From NCBI GenBank assembly GCA_024343425.1, contig BRLC01000019.1, forward strand, positions 1 through 64,000: 64,000 nt of DNA, in the 5' to 3' direction. The DNA comes from Rhizobiaceae bacterium MnEN-MB40S. Lineage in GTDB: Bacteria; Pseudomonadota; Alphaproteobacteria; Rhizobiales; Rhizobiaceae. Positions 15,095 to 20,284 of this stretch are shown here, in pieces. The notes beneath the pieces were generated by a model. The model searched no databases. It was given only the letters and a program-made list of their open reading frames with translations, and was not told the DNA's origin. The number at the start of each line of letters is the position of its first letter. Position 1 is the stretch's first letter. Position numbers and translations under genes: made by a program.

Positions 15095-16744
15095 CTACCG
15101 CGTCAGCCGCTTGTAGGTGACGCGTTTCGGATTGACGGAATCCGGTCCGAGGCGGCGGATCTTGTCCTTCTCGTAATCCTCGAAGTTGCCTTCGAACCAT
15201 TCCACGTGGCTGTCGCCTTCGAAGGCCAGGATATGCGTCGCCAGTCGGTCAAGAAACATGCGATCGTGGCTGATGATAACGGCGCAGCCTGCGAAATTCT
15301 CCAGCGCGTCCTCAAGCGCGGCCAGCGTTTCGGTGTCCAGATCGTTGGTCGGTTCGTCGAGCAGGATGACGTTGGACCCCTGTTTCAGGACCTTCGCCAG
15401 GTGCACCCGGTTGCGCTGTCCGCCGGAGAGCGTGCCGACTTTCTGCTGCTGGTCGCCGCCCTTGAAATTGAAGTTCGAGCAGTAGGCGCGCGAATTGACC
15501 TCGTGCTTGCCGAGTTTGATGATGTCGTTTCCGCCGGAGATTTCCTCCCAGACGGTCTTGCCGGCGTCCAGCGCGTCACGGCTCTGATCGACATAGCCGA
15601 GATCGACGGTTTCGCCGATCGTCACATCGCCATCGTCGGGCTTTTCCTGTCCGGTGATCATACGGAACAGCGTCGTCTTGCCGGCGCCGTTCGGGCCGAT
15701 CACGCCGACGATGCCGCCCGGCGGCAGCTTGAAGCTCAGATCGTCGATCAACAGCCGCTCGCCATAGCCCTTGCTGACGTCTTCCACGTCGATCACCTGG
15801 TTGCCGAGGCGTTCTCCGACCGGAATGATGATCTGGGCGTCGCCCGGGCGGCGATCGGCGGCTGCGTCCACCAGTTCGTTATAGGCGCGGATACGCGCCT
15901 TGGATTTCGCCTGCCGCGCCTTCGGGCTGGACGATATCCAGGCCTGTTCCTGCGCCATCGCCTTCTGGCGGTTGGCCTCTTCGCGGCCTTCCTGGACAAG
16001 CCGCTTGGCCTTGGCTTCCAGATAGGCGGAGTAGTTGCCCTCATAGGGAATGCCCCTGCCCCGGTCGAGTTCGAGGATCCAGCCGGTCACGTTGTCGAGG
16101 AAATAGCGATCGTGGGTGATCATCAGCACGGCGCCCGGATATTCGCGCAGATGCTTTTCAAGCCAGGCGATCGTTTCCGCGTCCAGGTGGTTGGTCGGTT
16201 CGTCGAGCAGCAGCAGATCAGGCTGCGAGAGCAGCAGCTTGCACAGCGCGACGCGGCGCTTTTCACCGCCGGACAGATTGTCGACCGCGCTTTCGCCGGG
16301 CGGACAGCGCAGCGCGTCCATCGCCATTTCGACCTGGCTGTCGAGATCCCACAGGTTCTGCGCGTCGATGATGTCCTGAAGCTTAGCGCCCTCGTCCGCC
16401 GTCTCGTCGGAATAGTTCATCATCAGTTCGTTGTAGCGGTCGACGATCGCCTTCTTTTCAGCAACGCCTTCCATGACGTTCTCGGCGACTGTTTTCGTCT
16501 CGTCGAGCTGCGGCTCCTGCGGCAGATAGCCGACGGTCGCGCCCTCCGCGACCCAGGCTTCGCCCGTATATTCATTGTCCAACCCGGCCATGATGCGCAG
16601 CACGGTGGACTTGCCGGCGCCGTTCGGACCCAGAATGCCGATCTTGGCGTCGGGGTAGAAAGACAGGTGGATGTTTTCAAGAACCTTCTTGGAGCCATAG
16701 GCCTTGTTGAGGCCGGCCATATGGTAGATGAACTGGCGTGCCAT
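15095..16744 (-). CDS. ettA: Energy-dependent translational throttle protein EttA (ABC-F)
   Basis: This 549-residue ABC-F ATPase has two nucleotide-binding domains without membrane segments. Walker A motifs are GPNGAGKST (near residue 39) and GPNGAGKTT (near 355). ABC signatures are [12 protein letters not shown] and [12 protein letters not shown], and [11 protein letters not shown] and [11 protein letters not shown] are the Walker B regions. EttA binds the ribosomal E site and gates entry into elongation according to ATP/ADP ratio. I chose the ATG at 16744 ([17 protein letters not shown]), which gives the family length. The open frame upstream to 17014 has no family similarity. Confidence 0.95.
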
Positions 16745-17003
16745 GGCGCGCGTGTTTCCTCGTAACTGATTGCTCGGAATTTTGGCTGCTTGTAGTGCGA
16801 GACGCGGTGAATTGAAAGCATATTGCAACATAAATTCGATGCTGGCGAGACAGCCCCGCGGCATGGTCGAAATCCTTGTCCACTTCACTTTGCTCTCGCA
16901 AAAGCGTGAATTTGTTCGCGGCCATCGTGAGAAAAGGTGAGGAAATGATCGTCTAGATTGCGCGTGCCGAAACTGATTTCGGTCATTTCCAGAGGAGATA
17001 CTC
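16745..17003. other. Divergent promoter region between ettA and the CGA-repeat peptide gene
   Basis: This 259 bp gap must hold promoters in both directions. I see no strong sigma-70 hexamers, known operator or stable hairpin. AGAGGAGA at 16991-16998 is the ribosome binding site of the rightward gene. Confidence 0.4.
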
Positions 17004-17192
17004 ATGAACGGCAAATCCAGAAAAGCACTCGCAATGATGATCGTTGGCGGCGGACTGACGGCTGCAGTCGCAGCGACCCCGGCCTGGTCTTCCTGCGGCG
17101 CATGCGGCGCTTGCGGCGCCTGCGGATCGAAAAAGGAAAAAGTCTGTGGCGCTTGTGGCGCATGCGGCGCTTGTGGCGCGAAGAAAGACTAA
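17004..17192 (+). CDS. Small secreted protein with two blocks of Cys-Gly-Ala repeats
   Basis: This 62-residue protein has a clear Sec-type signal peptide ([17 protein letters not shown] then a hydrophobic stretch, about residues 1-29). The mature part is almost only CGA repeats. Block one has cysteines at 31, 34, 37 and 40, then the charged linker SKKEKV. Block two has cysteines at 48, 51, 54 and 57, and the protein ends AKKD. All eight cysteines are in CxxC register, giving two identical metal-binding-like or disulfide-rich blocks in 32 residues. An excellent ribosome binding site (AGAGGAGA) sits 5 bp before the ATG. It is followed by a hairpin and then the HGHFH-motif gene. Metal binding, a RiPP-like precursor role, or redox buffering are all possible. 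I do not recognise a characterised homolog. Confidence 0.8.
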
Positions 17193-17206
17193 TTCGGCGC
17201 TATGCC

Positions 17207-17229
17207 GGGAGCCGTGTCTTTCGGCTCCC
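17207..17229 (+). terminator. Hairpin between the CGA-repeat gene and the downstream gene
   Basis: GGGAGCCG (17207-17214) and CGGCTCCC (17222-17229) form a perfect 8 bp stem with a 7-base loop. TGCAATTTCTGG follows, a poor U-tract. This looks like a partial terminator or a 3' stabiliser. It would let the small peptide be made in excess over the downstream protein if both are on one transcript. Confidence 0.6.
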
Positions 17230-17270
17230 TGCAATTTCTGGCATAAGCAAAGCGTAGCGGAACCGGACAG

Positions 17271-18014
17271 ATGAATATCACGATACGCGACAAGGCCAGC
17301 ATCGATTTCGCAAGCCTGCCCAAAGACAGGCTGCTCGCAATGCAGAAAGCGGCCGACGACATGATCGGCGTGCTTCAGGAGGCCGCGCAGCAGGACAAGC
17401 ACATCCTGATCGACGTCCTGGGCTCCACCTCCCCCGACCCCTTCACCATGTGGCGGCACTATCCGCCGGGAGACGTCCGCGACAAGAAGAAGGGCGCGGT
17501 CTGGTTCTATCACGCCCATGCGGAAGACAAGGAAGCGCGGCCCTGGACCGAGCACGGCCACTTTCACCTCTTCGTCTACACGGAACATGTCGCTGAGGGC
17601 GTCGAACCGATCGCATTGCCGCCCGAGCCCGATTTCGAGAATGGCGGCCTGTGCCATCTCGTCGCAATCTCATTCGACCATTCGGGAACTCCGATACGGG
17701 TTTTCACCACAAATCGCTGGGTCGCGGCCGAATGGCAGTATCCGGCCGAAGAGGTCATCCGGCTGCTCGACTATTTCGATCTCGACAATGACGAATTCGC
17801 CTTGACGACGCGCTGGCTGAAGGCGGCCCTGCAGCTTTTCCGGCCGCAGATCGAATGGAGCCTGATCGAACGCGACAAGGCGATCGAGGTGATGCGCCGG
17901 CAGGATCCGGAAGGCTTTTCGGAAGACACGTCCGTCGAGGCGTTGTCCTCGTTCGAATTCGATCTCGGCTCCCAGATCGACGGCATAGAAAACGCCCTCG
18001 CGGCAGACGAATAA
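17271..18014 (+). CDS. Uncharacterised HGHFH-motif protein (DUF6969-like)
   Basis: This 247-residue soluble protein has no signal peptide. Its most striking feature is the block WFYHAHAEDKEARPW then EHGHFHLFVYTE (about residues 79-106), with H82, H84 and three histidines in HGHFH. Downstream come LVAISFDHSGTPIRVFTTNRWV and a C-terminal LFRPQIEWSLIERD. From memory this pattern matches the family called DUF6969, whose function is unknown. The histidine cluster suggests a metal site, which is inference. The gene starts 78 bp after the CGA-repeat peptide gene on the same strand, separated by a hairpin. Confidence 0.7.
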   Translation: MNITIRDKASIDFASLPKDRLLAMQKAADDMIGVLQEAAQQDKHILIDVLGSTSPDPFTMWRHYPPGDVRDKKKGAVWFYHAHAEDKEARPWTEHGHFHLFVYTEHVAEGVEPIALPPEPDFENGGLCHLVAISFDHSGTPIRVFTTNRWVAAEWQYPAEEVIRLLDYFDLDNDEFALTTRWLKAALQLFRPQIEWSLIERDKAIEVMRRQDPEGFSEDTSVEALSSFEFDLGSQIDGIENALAADE

Positions 18015-18053
18015 ACGGTTGTTTTCGGCAGCGCCTGCGGGCATTGTCCGGCC

Positions 18054-19016
18054 ATGCCTGATTTCGACGAAAAAAGTGGTCTTGAGTCGCCCACCGGCGC
18101 AACGCTCAATCTCCTGCATATGAAGCCTGTGCAGGACTGTCGCGCGATCGTTCAGATCAATCACGGCATGGGAGAGCACGCCGGCCGGTACGCGCATTTC
18201 GCGTCGTTTCTCGCCAAGCGCGGTTTCGCCGTCTTCGCCCACGACCATCGCGGCCATGGCGAAACGGTCGCTCCGGGCATATCCGTCGGCATGTTCGGCA
18301 AGGGACCGTCTGGCGAAAACTGGAAACTGGTGATCGCCGATGTTCTGGCCGTCAACGAGCATGCGCGGCAGCGTTACGCGGATGTTCCGGTGATCACGTT
18401 CGGACATTCGATGGGAGCGGCCATCGCCTTCAATTTCGCCCTGTCCCATCCCGGACGCCAGGCCGGTCTCGCCGCCTGCAACCACGGCTTTGCTGCCGGT
18501 CTTCCCGCGCACGCGGCGTTGGCGATCCTCAGCGTGGAACGCATGCTCAAGGGCTCCGACACGCCAAGCCGCATCCTGCAGAAACTGACGATCGACGCCT
18601 GGGCCGCAAAGATCAAAGACCGCAAGATCTACGAGGACTGGCTCTCGCACAACGCCGAATCGAACGCCGCCTACGCGGCCGACCCGCTTTGCACCGGTTC
18701 TGAGCAGGTCTCCATATCGATGTGGCGGGACGTCATCGCGATGAATCTGCGCGCCGCCGATCCCAAGATGATCCAGGTCCTGCCGAAAAAACTTCCCGTC
18801 TACCTGACCGGAGGCGGACAGGACGCGGGCGTGGAAAACGGCAAGGCGATCGAAGGTGTGGCAAAGCGCATGCAGGCGGCCGGAATGGAAAAGGTCTCCT
18901 GGCGCATCTACGAGAATATGCGACACGAAACACTGAATGAAACGGCCGAGCCGGGCGCCCGCCAGGTGATGATCGACTTTGTTTCGTGGGCTGACGGGAT
19001 CCCGGAGCTCGCTTGA
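18054..19016 (+). CDS. Alpha/beta hydrolase, monoacylglycerol lipase-like
   Basis: This 320-residue protein has a Hydrolase_4 (serine aminopeptidase S33) fold. The nucleophile elbow is FGHSMGAA (S119) and the oxyanion-region motif is INHGMGEHAGRY (about 35-46). HDHRGHGET is typical of monoacylglycerol lipases and lysophospholipases. The catalytic histidine is probably in MRHETLNE near residue 292, and the acid is probably D266 in GGGQDAGVENGKAI. It is cytoplasmic, with no signal peptide. It follows the DUF6969-like gene by 39 bp, so the two may share a transcript, but the ATG at 18054 lacks a good ribosome binding site. Confidence 0.87.
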   Translation: MPDFDEKSGLESPTGATLNLLHMKPVQDCRAIVQINHGMGEHAGRYAHFASFLAKRGFAVFAHDHRGHGETVAPGISVGMFGKGPSGENWKLVIADVLAVNEHARQRYADVPVITFGHSMGAAIAFNFALSHPGRQAGLAACNHGFAAGLPAHAALAILSVERMLKGSDTPSRILQKLTIDAWAAKIKDRKIYEDWLSHNAESNAAYAADPLCTGSEQVSISMWRDVIAMNLRAADPKMIQVLPKKLPVYLTGGGQDAGVENGKAIEGVAKRMQAAGMEKVSWRIYENMRHETLNETAEPGARQVMIDFVSWADGIPELA

Positions 19017-19095
19017 GCGTTATCCAATGCAAGTGTTCATTTCCCGATCACTTTGCTAACATTTACTGAGGAACACACGTAAAGCGGAGCCGCCG

Positions 19096-19905
19096 ATGCT
19101 GGCCGATCTCTTCACCCTCGACAATCTCACGACTTTTCTCATCCTGACGGCGCTGGAAACAGTGCTGGGTTTCGACAATCTGCTCTACATCTCGATCGAG
19201 GCGAAGCAGGTGGACCCGGCGCGGCAATCCTGGGTCAGGAAGATCGGCATCATCCTGGCGATCGTGTTCAGGATCATACTGCTCTTCGTCGTGCTTCAGC
19301 TTATCAAATTGCTGCAGGCGCCGCTTTTCGTTCTCGACCATCCCTGGATATCGGGAGCGATCAGCGGCCACTCGCTGATCGTTCTCGCCGGCGGCGTCTT
19401 CCTGATCTACACGGCGATGAAGGAAATCTATCACATGATCGGCGTCGAGGACCTCGAGCATCACGAGCTGGAATATACGCGTCGAACCGTGCGCGCTGCC
19501 CTGTTCTGGATCGTCGTCATGAATGTGATCTTCTCCTTCGACACGGTGCTGTCGGCCGTGGCGCTGACCGACCATTTCATCGTCATGACCGCCGCGATCG
19601 TGGTTTCCGGCGGGCTCATGGTGCTGATGGCGGATACGGTCGCCAATTTCCTGCAGAAAAACCGCATGTACGAGGTGCTCGGCCTGTTCGTGCTGCTGCT
19701 CGTCGGCGTCATGCTGATGTCGGATGGCGGCCATATCGGCCATCTGCACTTCTTCGGATACGCCATCGAGCCGATGGCCAAATCCACCTTCTACTTCGTC
19801 CTGTTCACCCTTGTGGCGGTCGAAATCGTGCAGGGGCGCTATCAGAAACGCATCTTGGCGGAGAAGCGCGCCAAGGCCCGCGCGGAAAGGGAGCGCATAG
19901 CCTGA
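19096..19905 (+). CDS. TerC family integral membrane protein
   Basis: This 269-residue protein has about seven membrane segments. TerC signatures are ETVLGFDNLLYISI (about 20-33) and NVIFSFDTVLSAVALT (about 142-157), each with the conserved Asp in a membrane helix. TerC/Alx proteins export metal ions such as manganese, or support metalation of secreted proteins. No yybP-ykoY (manganese) riboswitch can fit in the 79 bp upstream gap, and none is seen. Confidence 0.9.
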   Translation: MLADLFTLDNLTTFLILTALETVLGFDNLLYISIEAKQVDPARQSWVRKIGIILAIVFRIILLFVVLQLIKLLQAPLFVLDHPWISGAISGHSLIVLAGGVFLIYTAMKEIYHMIGVEDLEHHELEYTRRTVRAALFWIVVMNVIFSFDTVLSAVALTDHFIVMTAAIVVSGGLMVLMADTVANFLQKNRMYEVLGLFVLLLVGVMLMSDGGHIGHLHFFGYAIEPMAKSTFYFVLFTLVAVEIVQGRYQKRILAEKRAKARAERERIA

Positions 19906-19915
19906 TTGCAGTCGC

Positions 19916-19937
19916 GTCGGGGCGTTCGCGCCCCGAC
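19916..19937. terminator. Bidirectional hairpin between terC and the DUF442 gene
   Basis: GTCGGGGCG and CGCCCCGAC form a perfect 9 bp stem with a stable TTCG tetraloop. It fills the 40 bp between two convergent genes, where a shared terminator would be expected. There is no clear T-tract on either side. Confidence 0.65.
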
Positions 19938-19945
19938 CAGTCAGG

Positions 19946-20284
19946 TCAGTTGCGGATGTGCAATGTCTGCTGGTAGATGGCTGTGGAGCGCGCGCCGGAG
20001 CGGCAGTAGCCGAGCATAGGGCGATCCAGTTCGTCGAGCGCGTCGACGAAGGCCTGCACCTGCTCGTAGCCCACGCCCGTCGGCCCGACCGGAACGTGCC
20101 GCATTTCCAGGCCAAGCTCCTTCGCCGCCTTTTCGATCTCTGCGAAGTCAGGCTGTCCGGCCGCTTCTCCGTCGGGACGGTGACAGACAATGGACTTGAA
20201 TCCGGCGGCCTTGATGTCCTTCAGATCGTCCACGCTGATCTGGCCCGCAACCGAATATTCCTCGTTGATCTGTCGTATGTCCAT
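19946..20284 (-). CDS. TIGR01244 / DUF442 family phosphatase-like sulfur transferase
   Basis: This 112-residue protein of the DUF442 family (beta-lactamase hydrolase-like domain) has a dual-specificity-phosphatase-like fold. The active-site loop is GYCRSGARS with C94. SVAGQISVDDLKDIKAAGFKSIVCHRPDGE (about 11-40) is the conserved N-terminal pattern. Family members accompany rhodanese or persulfide dioxygenase genes and are suggested to act in sulfur transfer. None of those genes is adjacent here. I chose the ATG at 20284 (MDIRQINEEY), the usual family start. Upstream codons in frame do not look like the family. Confidence 0.82.
   Translation of the reverse strand: MDIRQINEEYSVAGQISVDDLKDIKAAGFKSIVCHRPDGEAAGQPDFAEIEKAAKELGLEMRHVPVGPTGVGYEQVQAFVDALDELDRPMLGYCRSGARSTAIYQQTLHIRN

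Follow-up and report, generated by a model that had tools for sequence, protein, structure and literature searches.

In the window, by which we mean the whole 64,000-nt stretch of Rhizobiaceae bacterium MnEN-MB40S DNA analysed here, a small gene for a putatively exported cysteine-repeat peptide stands directly before a gene for a protein of the DUF6969 family, and the two kinds of genes recur together in Alphaproteobacteria and in other classes. The dependence is one-sided: repeat proteins of the CNPCAAK type rarely occur without DUF6969, whereas DUF6969 sometimes occurs without a detected repeat. On the basis of this one-sided dependence, the varied domains attached to the repeat, the similarity of the leaders and the lack of a recognisable signal peptide in DUF6969, we propose that DUF6969 works on the repeat in the cytosol, prior to export, i.e., as a metal-dependent maturation factor (by modification or a comparable action) for Sec-exported Cys-repeat proteins, and we give this interpretation an even chance.

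The two genes of the window locus

The peptide gene, ORF1 (17004–17192, + strand), encodes 62 amino acids of the (CGA)n type and was assigned by reading the sequence and by comparison with relatives having a like leader (L015–L023). A charged start, with Lys/Arg ahead of the hydrophobic part, is followed by a hydrophobic segment within residues 1–30 and an Ala-rich end, a pattern kept in the relatives which we read as a putative signal peptide; the Cys-repeat begins at residue 31 and consists of two identical CGACGACGACG blocks joined by the linker SKKEKV. All eight Cys are contained in the last 32 residues, which is the Cys-rich composition used to define MNIO/bufferin precursors. When we reread positions 16001–20000, the hydrophobic N-terminus, the eight Cys and the two identical blocks were found where a preceding sequence-only reading of this DNA had placed them. 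A ribosome-binding-site-like AGAGGAGA (16991–16998, + strand) lies ahead of the ATG and is identical in all seven aligned sequences, i.e., the window and six others. Cys, Gly and Ala of the repeat are encoded by mixed synonymous codons, and the peptide copies of L015 and L016 have 16 synonymous and 4 non-synonymous differences over 66 codons, indicating that the repeat has been maintained as a protein and is not a product of DNA slippage. No curated family reached its cut-off for the window peptide in the Pfam and NCBIfam scans, and its AF2 model has a mean pLDDT of 48.7 and no predicted fold.

The gap between ORF1 and ORF2 is 78 bp and contains a GC-rich hairpin (17207–17229, + strand) with an 8-bp stem and a 7-nt loop in a folding calculation, in agreement with the spacing and the hairpin that the same reading had described. 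The 91-nt stretch around the hairpin has a folding energy of −34.1 kcal/mol (z −2.7), and none of 200 shuffled sequences was equally stable; comparable GC-rich inverted repeats, judged by eye without pair counts, are present in the gaps of L017, L019, L020 and L021. A terminator-like site was not reported at 17207–17229 and a sigma-70 promoter scan of 16850–18100 gave no match; it is possible that the hairpin serves as an attenuator or an mRNA stabiliser.

ORF2 (17271–18014, + strand) encodes the 247-aa protein that we propose as the maturation factor. Its residues 26–229 match PF22308 (DUF6969) with E 3.3e-58 and 197 bits versus a cut-off of 27, which places it within this family; PF22308 was the sole Pfam match, with none to PF05114 (MNIO), and no NCBIfam model matched at E 1. 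What had been described from the letters as a HAH and HGHFH motif protein of an uncharacterised family is therefore a DUF6969 protein, in which the motifs are H81-A-H83 and E94-H-G-H97-F-H99 and a signal peptide is not evident by eye. The YHxH...EHGHFH segment of residues 80–99 (17508–17567, + strand) is likely to form a metal site with H129, judging from this His/Glu set. In alignment A1, for which 8 of the 13 loci of our relatives search were picked by whole-protein similarity with no part played by the motif, Y80, H81, H83, E94, G96, H97, F98, H99, H129, N148 and W150 are invariant in all eight rows. Among 159 distinct DUF6969 sequences, H129, N148 and R201 are found in all 159 and E94 in 158; the constancy of H81, H83, G96, F98, H99 and W150 in this set is partly selected because the filter partly demanded them, and the GHFH invariance in the set and in alignment A3 is partly due to selection on that motif.

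The AF2 model of DUF6969 is confident (mean pLDDT 90.8, pTM 0.90) and shows a mixed alpha/beta protein having six strands of at least three residues, with H81, H97, H99 and H129 placed on predicted strands. None of 120 Foldseek matches of this model reached E ≤ 0.001, an absence that does not prove a new fold; the top VIA-align match was weak (Z 4.4, 44 residues aligned, rmsd 2.1), and a PDB sequence search gave nothing reliable (top E 0.087). A role in anti-phage defence was rejected, as PADLOC gave no match for the DUF6969 protein or for one FGE-like protein of the kind described below. A literature search, mostly without subscription papers, found no mention of DUF6969 or PF22308 and no occurrence of the strings CNPCNPC and NPCAAK, and yielded nothing else relevant to the pair.

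Recurrence of the pair in Proteobacteria

DUF6969 was found in 13 of 61 genomes, i.e., the window's own genome and 60 relatives, and a Cys-repeat gene was present at 11 of these 13 loci, each read over a stretch of 3.5–3.7 kb (none was seen at L010 and L011). In the congeneric genomes G001 and G002 a CGA peptide lies directly 5' of DUF6969, and the pair is retained in L015–L021 belonging to Flavimaribacter, a Pararhizobium MAG, Hoeflea, Nitratireductor and Rhizobiaceae MAGs. The peptides of L022 and L023 have a leader of the same kind as the window peptide but are composed of CNPCAAK units, and thus link the CGA peptide with a CNPCAAK family that is far larger.

For a wider survey we used the best 80 of 570 confirmed DUF6969 candidates, which were retrieved with the pattern E[HN]GHFH[TLI]F and are therefore selected on that motif, and which include near-duplicates such as L076/L080; a codon-usage gene caller recovered DUF6969 in only 71 of the 80. 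The raw Cys-repeat scan gave 22 matches at 0–0.5 kb from DUF6969 (153 half-kb bins), 11 at 3–6 kb, all of which proved to be off-frame artefacts when read, and zero at 6–7.5 kb (325 bins). After manual reading of the scan, with off-frame artefacts dropped, a genuine Cys-repeat gene remained within about 3 kb of DUF6969 in 37 of the best 80 of 570 loci, i.e., under half. The repeat gene is directly upstream and co-directional in Rhizobiaceae and at several other loci, divergent at others, and downstream in L065, L067 and L074. Twelve Azospirillum loci within the best 80 of 570 have no Cys-repeat gene near DUF6969, and four Azospirillum genomes searched whole with profile A2, built from 14 CNPCAAK-type peptides, gave no match. 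A whole-genome search of seven genomes whose loci have no adjacent repeat, these four Azospirillum genomes included, found repeats elsewhere in three, two of which are, by coordinates, already in the class sample described below. The recurring adjacency that the sequence-only reading expected of a genuine system is thus present and is broader than (CGA)n, the partners being mostly (CNPCAAK)n and its variants, with some fused to other domains.

Co-occurrence at the genome level was counted in a fixed sample of 385 alphaproteobacterial genomes. DUF6969 is present in 90 of them and A2-type repeat proteins in 53; in 50 of these 53 the repeat protein is accompanied by DUF6969 (Fisher p 4e-34, a statistic that treats phylogenetically related genomes as independent). 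Counted by family, DUF6969 is present in 30 of 31 repeat-bearing families, and p is below 1e-18 whether the total number of families is taken as 150 or 174. The pair lies within 2.5 kb in at least 34 and within 8 kb in 38 of the 50 co-carrying genomes; among the remaining 12, three have the two genes on one contig at a large distance, and in the other nine no contig holds the pair. Genomes G184, G356 and G404 have repeat proteins and, searched at E 10, no DUF6969 above the cut-off. Profile A2 misses the window's own peptide, and a CGA-type profile recovers this peptide and adds G124. Of the 38 DUF6969 genomes that the two profiles left without a match, 35 (all except G094, G131 and G185) were read for up to about 5 kb on each side, and this reading added Cys repeats in eight (G321, G064, G442, G063, G276, G205, G181 and G075). 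In total a Cys-repeat gene was found in 60 of the 90 DUF6969 genomes and no repeat in 30, of which three are the genomes not read and some have short contigs. The sequence-only reading had held that absence of the peptide from most members of the downstream family would speak against a system; that part stands for close neighbourhood, a repeat being nearby in fewer than half of the best 80 of 570 loci, and fails at the genome level, where two thirds of the DUF6969 genomes of the class sample have one.

The same sample served as a control for MNIO, which is present in 149 of the 385 genomes, namely in 18 of the 53 repeat-bearing genomes and 131 of the 332 others (p 0.54, no association). This bears on the explanation that the peptide is an MNIO-type (bufferin/oxazolin) RiPP modified in trans by an MNIO encoded elsewhere in the genome, which we reject on the absent co-occurrence and regard as highly improbable. 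According to the available text of PMC12452194, MNIO systems typically have Cys-rich precursors that are exported, and the window genome does have one MNIO match, but that MNIO lies in a cluster of its own with DUF2282 and DUF2063. The statement made from the letters alone that no MNIO, DUF2063 or DoxX partner is present accordingly holds for the four genes scanned at 17.0–19.9 kb, where PF05114, DUF2063 and DoxX were not found, and does not hold for the genome. The cluster elsewhere (G000:C16:149923-150720, locus L014) contains a DUF2282 bufferin-type peptide, MNIO and DUF2063, together with a DoxX-like ORF recognised by eye.

Outside Alphaproteobacteria the pair is also found. Among 388 genomes of the phylum, DUF6969 is present in 19, seven of them outside this class, and a Cys-repeat gene lies beside DUF6969 in six of the seven genomes (7/8 loci); the DUF6969 gene of the eighth locus sits 175 bases from a contig end. 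A search of 72,556 plasmid records gave 167 DUF6969 matches, 104 in Sinorhizobium, 47 in Burkholderia, 13 in Azospirillum and three in others. In the betaproteobacterial plasmid pWSGX3 of Burkholderia glumae, an 89-aa Cys-rich ORF annotated as hypothetical (L217, 4595–4864) immediately precedes DUF6969, and in pSymB of Sinorhizobium meliloti 1021 a Sulf_transp gene, a four-Cys peptide and DUF6969 are consecutive. This latter copy puts the pair within reach of testing in a model organism. Both DUF6969 and the four-Cys peptide (L215, pSymB 1085809–1096315) are unannotated in the PLSDB table, where this record has one feature in all. An alphaproteobacterial-type DUF6969 locus was also seen in a cyanobacterial assembly (L053, Phormidium willei BDU 130791 contig00129), probably on a contaminating contig.

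Coincidence of lineage, i.e., two unrelated families inherited in the same clades, is scarcely credible in view of these distributions. The genomes are related and over half of the best 80 of 570 loci have no nearby repeat gene, as this explanation would have it, but adjacency recurs, with several gene orders, in Alphaproteobacteria, on a plasmid of a betaproteobacterium and in six genomes from further classes, and the relation is one-sided while the MNIO control shows none. The likeness to pairs of an exported Cys-rich precursor and a cytosolic partner, to which the sequence-only reading had drawn attention, is therefore upheld (50/53 genomes of the class sample, 6/7 outside the class, 11/13 relatives' loci).

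Portable repeats, leaders and the proposed role of DUF6969

The repeat is not restricted to small peptides. It makes up the N-terminal region of proteins that have cytochrome P460 (PF16694) at their C-terminal end, precedes a SoxA/TsdA-like cytochrome c domain (PF21342) in others, and is also fused to a TIGR01244/PTP-like domain, for which the TIGR01244 match is below its own cut-off (51 of 85.85 bits). Cytochrome P460 is encoded in 18 of the best 80 of 570 loci, in 16 of them within 2.5 kb of DUF6969, and in 16 of the 18 the repeat is on the P460 protein or beside it (none was seen in L048 and L077). Because it is found on cytochrome P460 and other redox proteins also, the repeat would be a transferable module and not a single peptide. 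In the literature search, mostly without subscription papers, no paper joining Cys-rich repeat fusions with cytochrome P460 was found among the matches listed. Very long Cys-repeat N-terminal regions were observed on the cytochrome P460 proteins at L068:5538-6899, L065:10100-11632 and L067:5895-7634, and additional repeat types beside DUF6969 are CAAEGCC (L166:5710-6006), CAACAAG (L207:5792-6223) and CCGGCCAAKCGG (L064:7536-7961). Among the identities tried for the repeat, MSSP, Mst87F and CXXC zinc finger were discarded since their Pfam scores are below cut-off, and Cornifin, above cut-off for L068 (46.9 versus 34.8 bits), was taken as a composition match to the repeat.

Many repeat-protein leaders share, by inspection, an LLS-x-T-x-x-P-like segment and a short L-A-[AS]-C end. 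At 12 loci encoding both a Cys-repeat protein and an FGE-like protein, the Cys-repeat leaders align better with each other than the FGE-like leaders in 61 of 66 pairs (medians 38 versus 20.5), the pairs being phylogenetically non-independent; for all leaders the difference is smaller (28 versus 22), the figure of 28 being derived from 60 of 77 segments, with a few off-frame artefacts among them. The available text of PMC12452194 proposes the bufferin leader as part of a recognition sequence, and the likeness found in our comparison would be consistent with a similar leader recognition.

In the scheme that we infer, in its metal, catalysis, site and nature of modification, export and physiological role alike, DUF6969 would recognise the leader and the repeat in the cytosol ahead of export and would act on the repeat cysteines, oxidative or other covalent modification being the most likely action. 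The matured repeat, once outside the inner membrane, would use its thiols to buffer or carry a soft metal or sulfane sulfur, and would do so either as a small peptide on its own or as one domain of c-type cytochromes or a sulfur-transferase-like protein. The product may handle sulfur or metal, given that some lineages have sulfur-related neighbours and that CxxC arrays have the potential to bind metals.

The same co-occurrence, adjacency and leader data would be expected also of a non-catalytic chaperone or loader, which binds the nascent repeat, either protects it from oxidation and metals or charges it with metal or sulfur, and passes it to Sec with no covalent change; the eight thiols of an unmodified (CGA)n peptide, for which AF2 predicts no fold, could oxidise or capture cytosolic metals. 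We consider such a chaperone unlikely, because the conserved His/Glu set with N148 and R201 appears to resemble an active site more than a binding surface.

Maturation by DUF6969, if true, would give this family, widespread in the class sample, a client and a testable role, and would mean that the exported Cys-rich precursor strategy of MNIO systems has a second, unrelated solution. A more far-reaching proposal takes DUF6969 as the founding family of a new class of metalloenzymes that modify peptides and proteins and whose fold differs from those solved. Such enzymes would act ahead of export on a Cys-repeat module that is portable (free peptides, c-type cytochrome and sulfur-transferase-like domains), and would thereby create an exported Cys chemistry not seen before in Proteobacteria. 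This proposal is tentative, and we rate it somewhat short of an even chance.

Comparison with known systems helps to place the pair. As far as the available text of PMC12452194 describes them, MNIO (DUF692, PF05114) systems comprise Buf1 (DUF2282), Buf2 and EGKCG/oxazolin types, whose Cys-rich precursors with Sec signals range from small to long and include repeat types, and Buf1 fusions with cytochrome c and FGE-sulfatase domains are reported. Judged against that text, the Cys-rich precursor (putatively exported in our case), the repeats, the cytochrome c fusions and the leader as a recognition candidate are alike here; in contrast, DUF6969 has no PF05114 match and is modelled as a mixed alpha/beta protein, the pair has no adjoining MNIO or DUF2063, and there is no statistical link with MNIO. 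Unlike EGKCG/oxazolin precursors, the window repeat is CGA and those of relatives are mostly CNPCAAK-like, the EGKCG motif being absent. As defining features of MNIO/bufferin systems are lacking, we do not class the pair as bufferin, though the arrangement would work alike. The RiPP peptide CefA (NF038108), with a Cys at every fifth residue, has a Cys spacing similar to that of NPCAA-type repeats; L044, L066 and L092 score below the threshold of this model (top 22.3 versus 30 bits) and the window peptide gives no match. In bacterial metallothioneins and copper storage proteins a high Cys density suits soft-metal binding; unlike these, the window peptide is putatively exported, of low complexity and tied to a dedicated cytosolic partner.

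Neighbouring genes

Downstream of ORF2, Pfam scans assigned an alpha/beta hydrolase (Hydrolase_4; 18054–19016, + strand) and a TerC-family membrane protein (19096–19905, + strand). They neighbour DUF6969 in only 7 and 6 of the best 80 of 570 loci, respectively, all in close relatives (L015–L021), and both were ruled out as core partners; the TerC gene, to which the sequence-only reading had pointed in connection with metals, is thus not borne out as part of the system. A family scan further assigned a TIGR01244/BLH_phosphatase, sulfur transferase-like gene (19946–20284, − strand). A sequence like it is near DUF6969 in 7 of the best 80 of 570 loci, and the copy at L060 is fused to a Cys-repeat.

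Several other neighbours are related to sulfur. Of 76 extra loci, a set that contains duplicates, 13 (12 distinct places) have a Sulf_transp (YeeE/YedE) gene no more than 2.5 kb from DUF6969, and none of the main loci (best 80 of 570) has one; a sulfurtransferase gene is found upstream of YeeE/YedE in S. meliloti ml66, and rhodanese is encoded in 9 of the best 80 of 570 loci. Together with the SoxA/TsdA-like domains, these genes would suit a DUF6969 that functions on its own in the stress pathway of the peptide, as an enzyme or sensor (e.g., of thiol/persulfide chemistry), sharing only regulation with the peptide and having no action on it. Such independence accounts poorly for the rarity of A2-type repeats without DUF6969 even when the two genes are non-adjacent, leaves the alike leaders unexplained, and has to reckon with neighbours that vary by lineage, and we hold it to be rather improbable. 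The sulfur link is suggestive and lineage-bound, and we therefore have not adopted it as a main claim beside maturation by DUF6969. TRAP/TAXI transporter, UspA and ABC clusters near DUF6969 were likewise set aside, being regarded as lineage neighbours.

FGE-type enzymes act on protein cysteines. An FGE-like gene (PF03781) is encoded in 30 of the best 80 of 570 loci, always within 2.5 kb of DUF6969, and was not detected at the window locus by our scans. A GCG[IV]C pair is present in all 27 FGE-like sequences read (near-duplicates included), many of which have a hydrophobic start, and this pair is a candidate counterpart of the FGE copper site. The FGE-like protein is apparently secreted and its gene is often directly upstream of DUF6969, as exemplified by L077:7015-7896. 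DUF2336 is encoded in 22 of the best 80 of 570 loci; at several loci, from Azospirillum and from others, a DUF2336/SpbR-family gene was observed downstream of DUF6969, in some cases with no nearby Cys-repeat, and L041:8854-10044 is one example.
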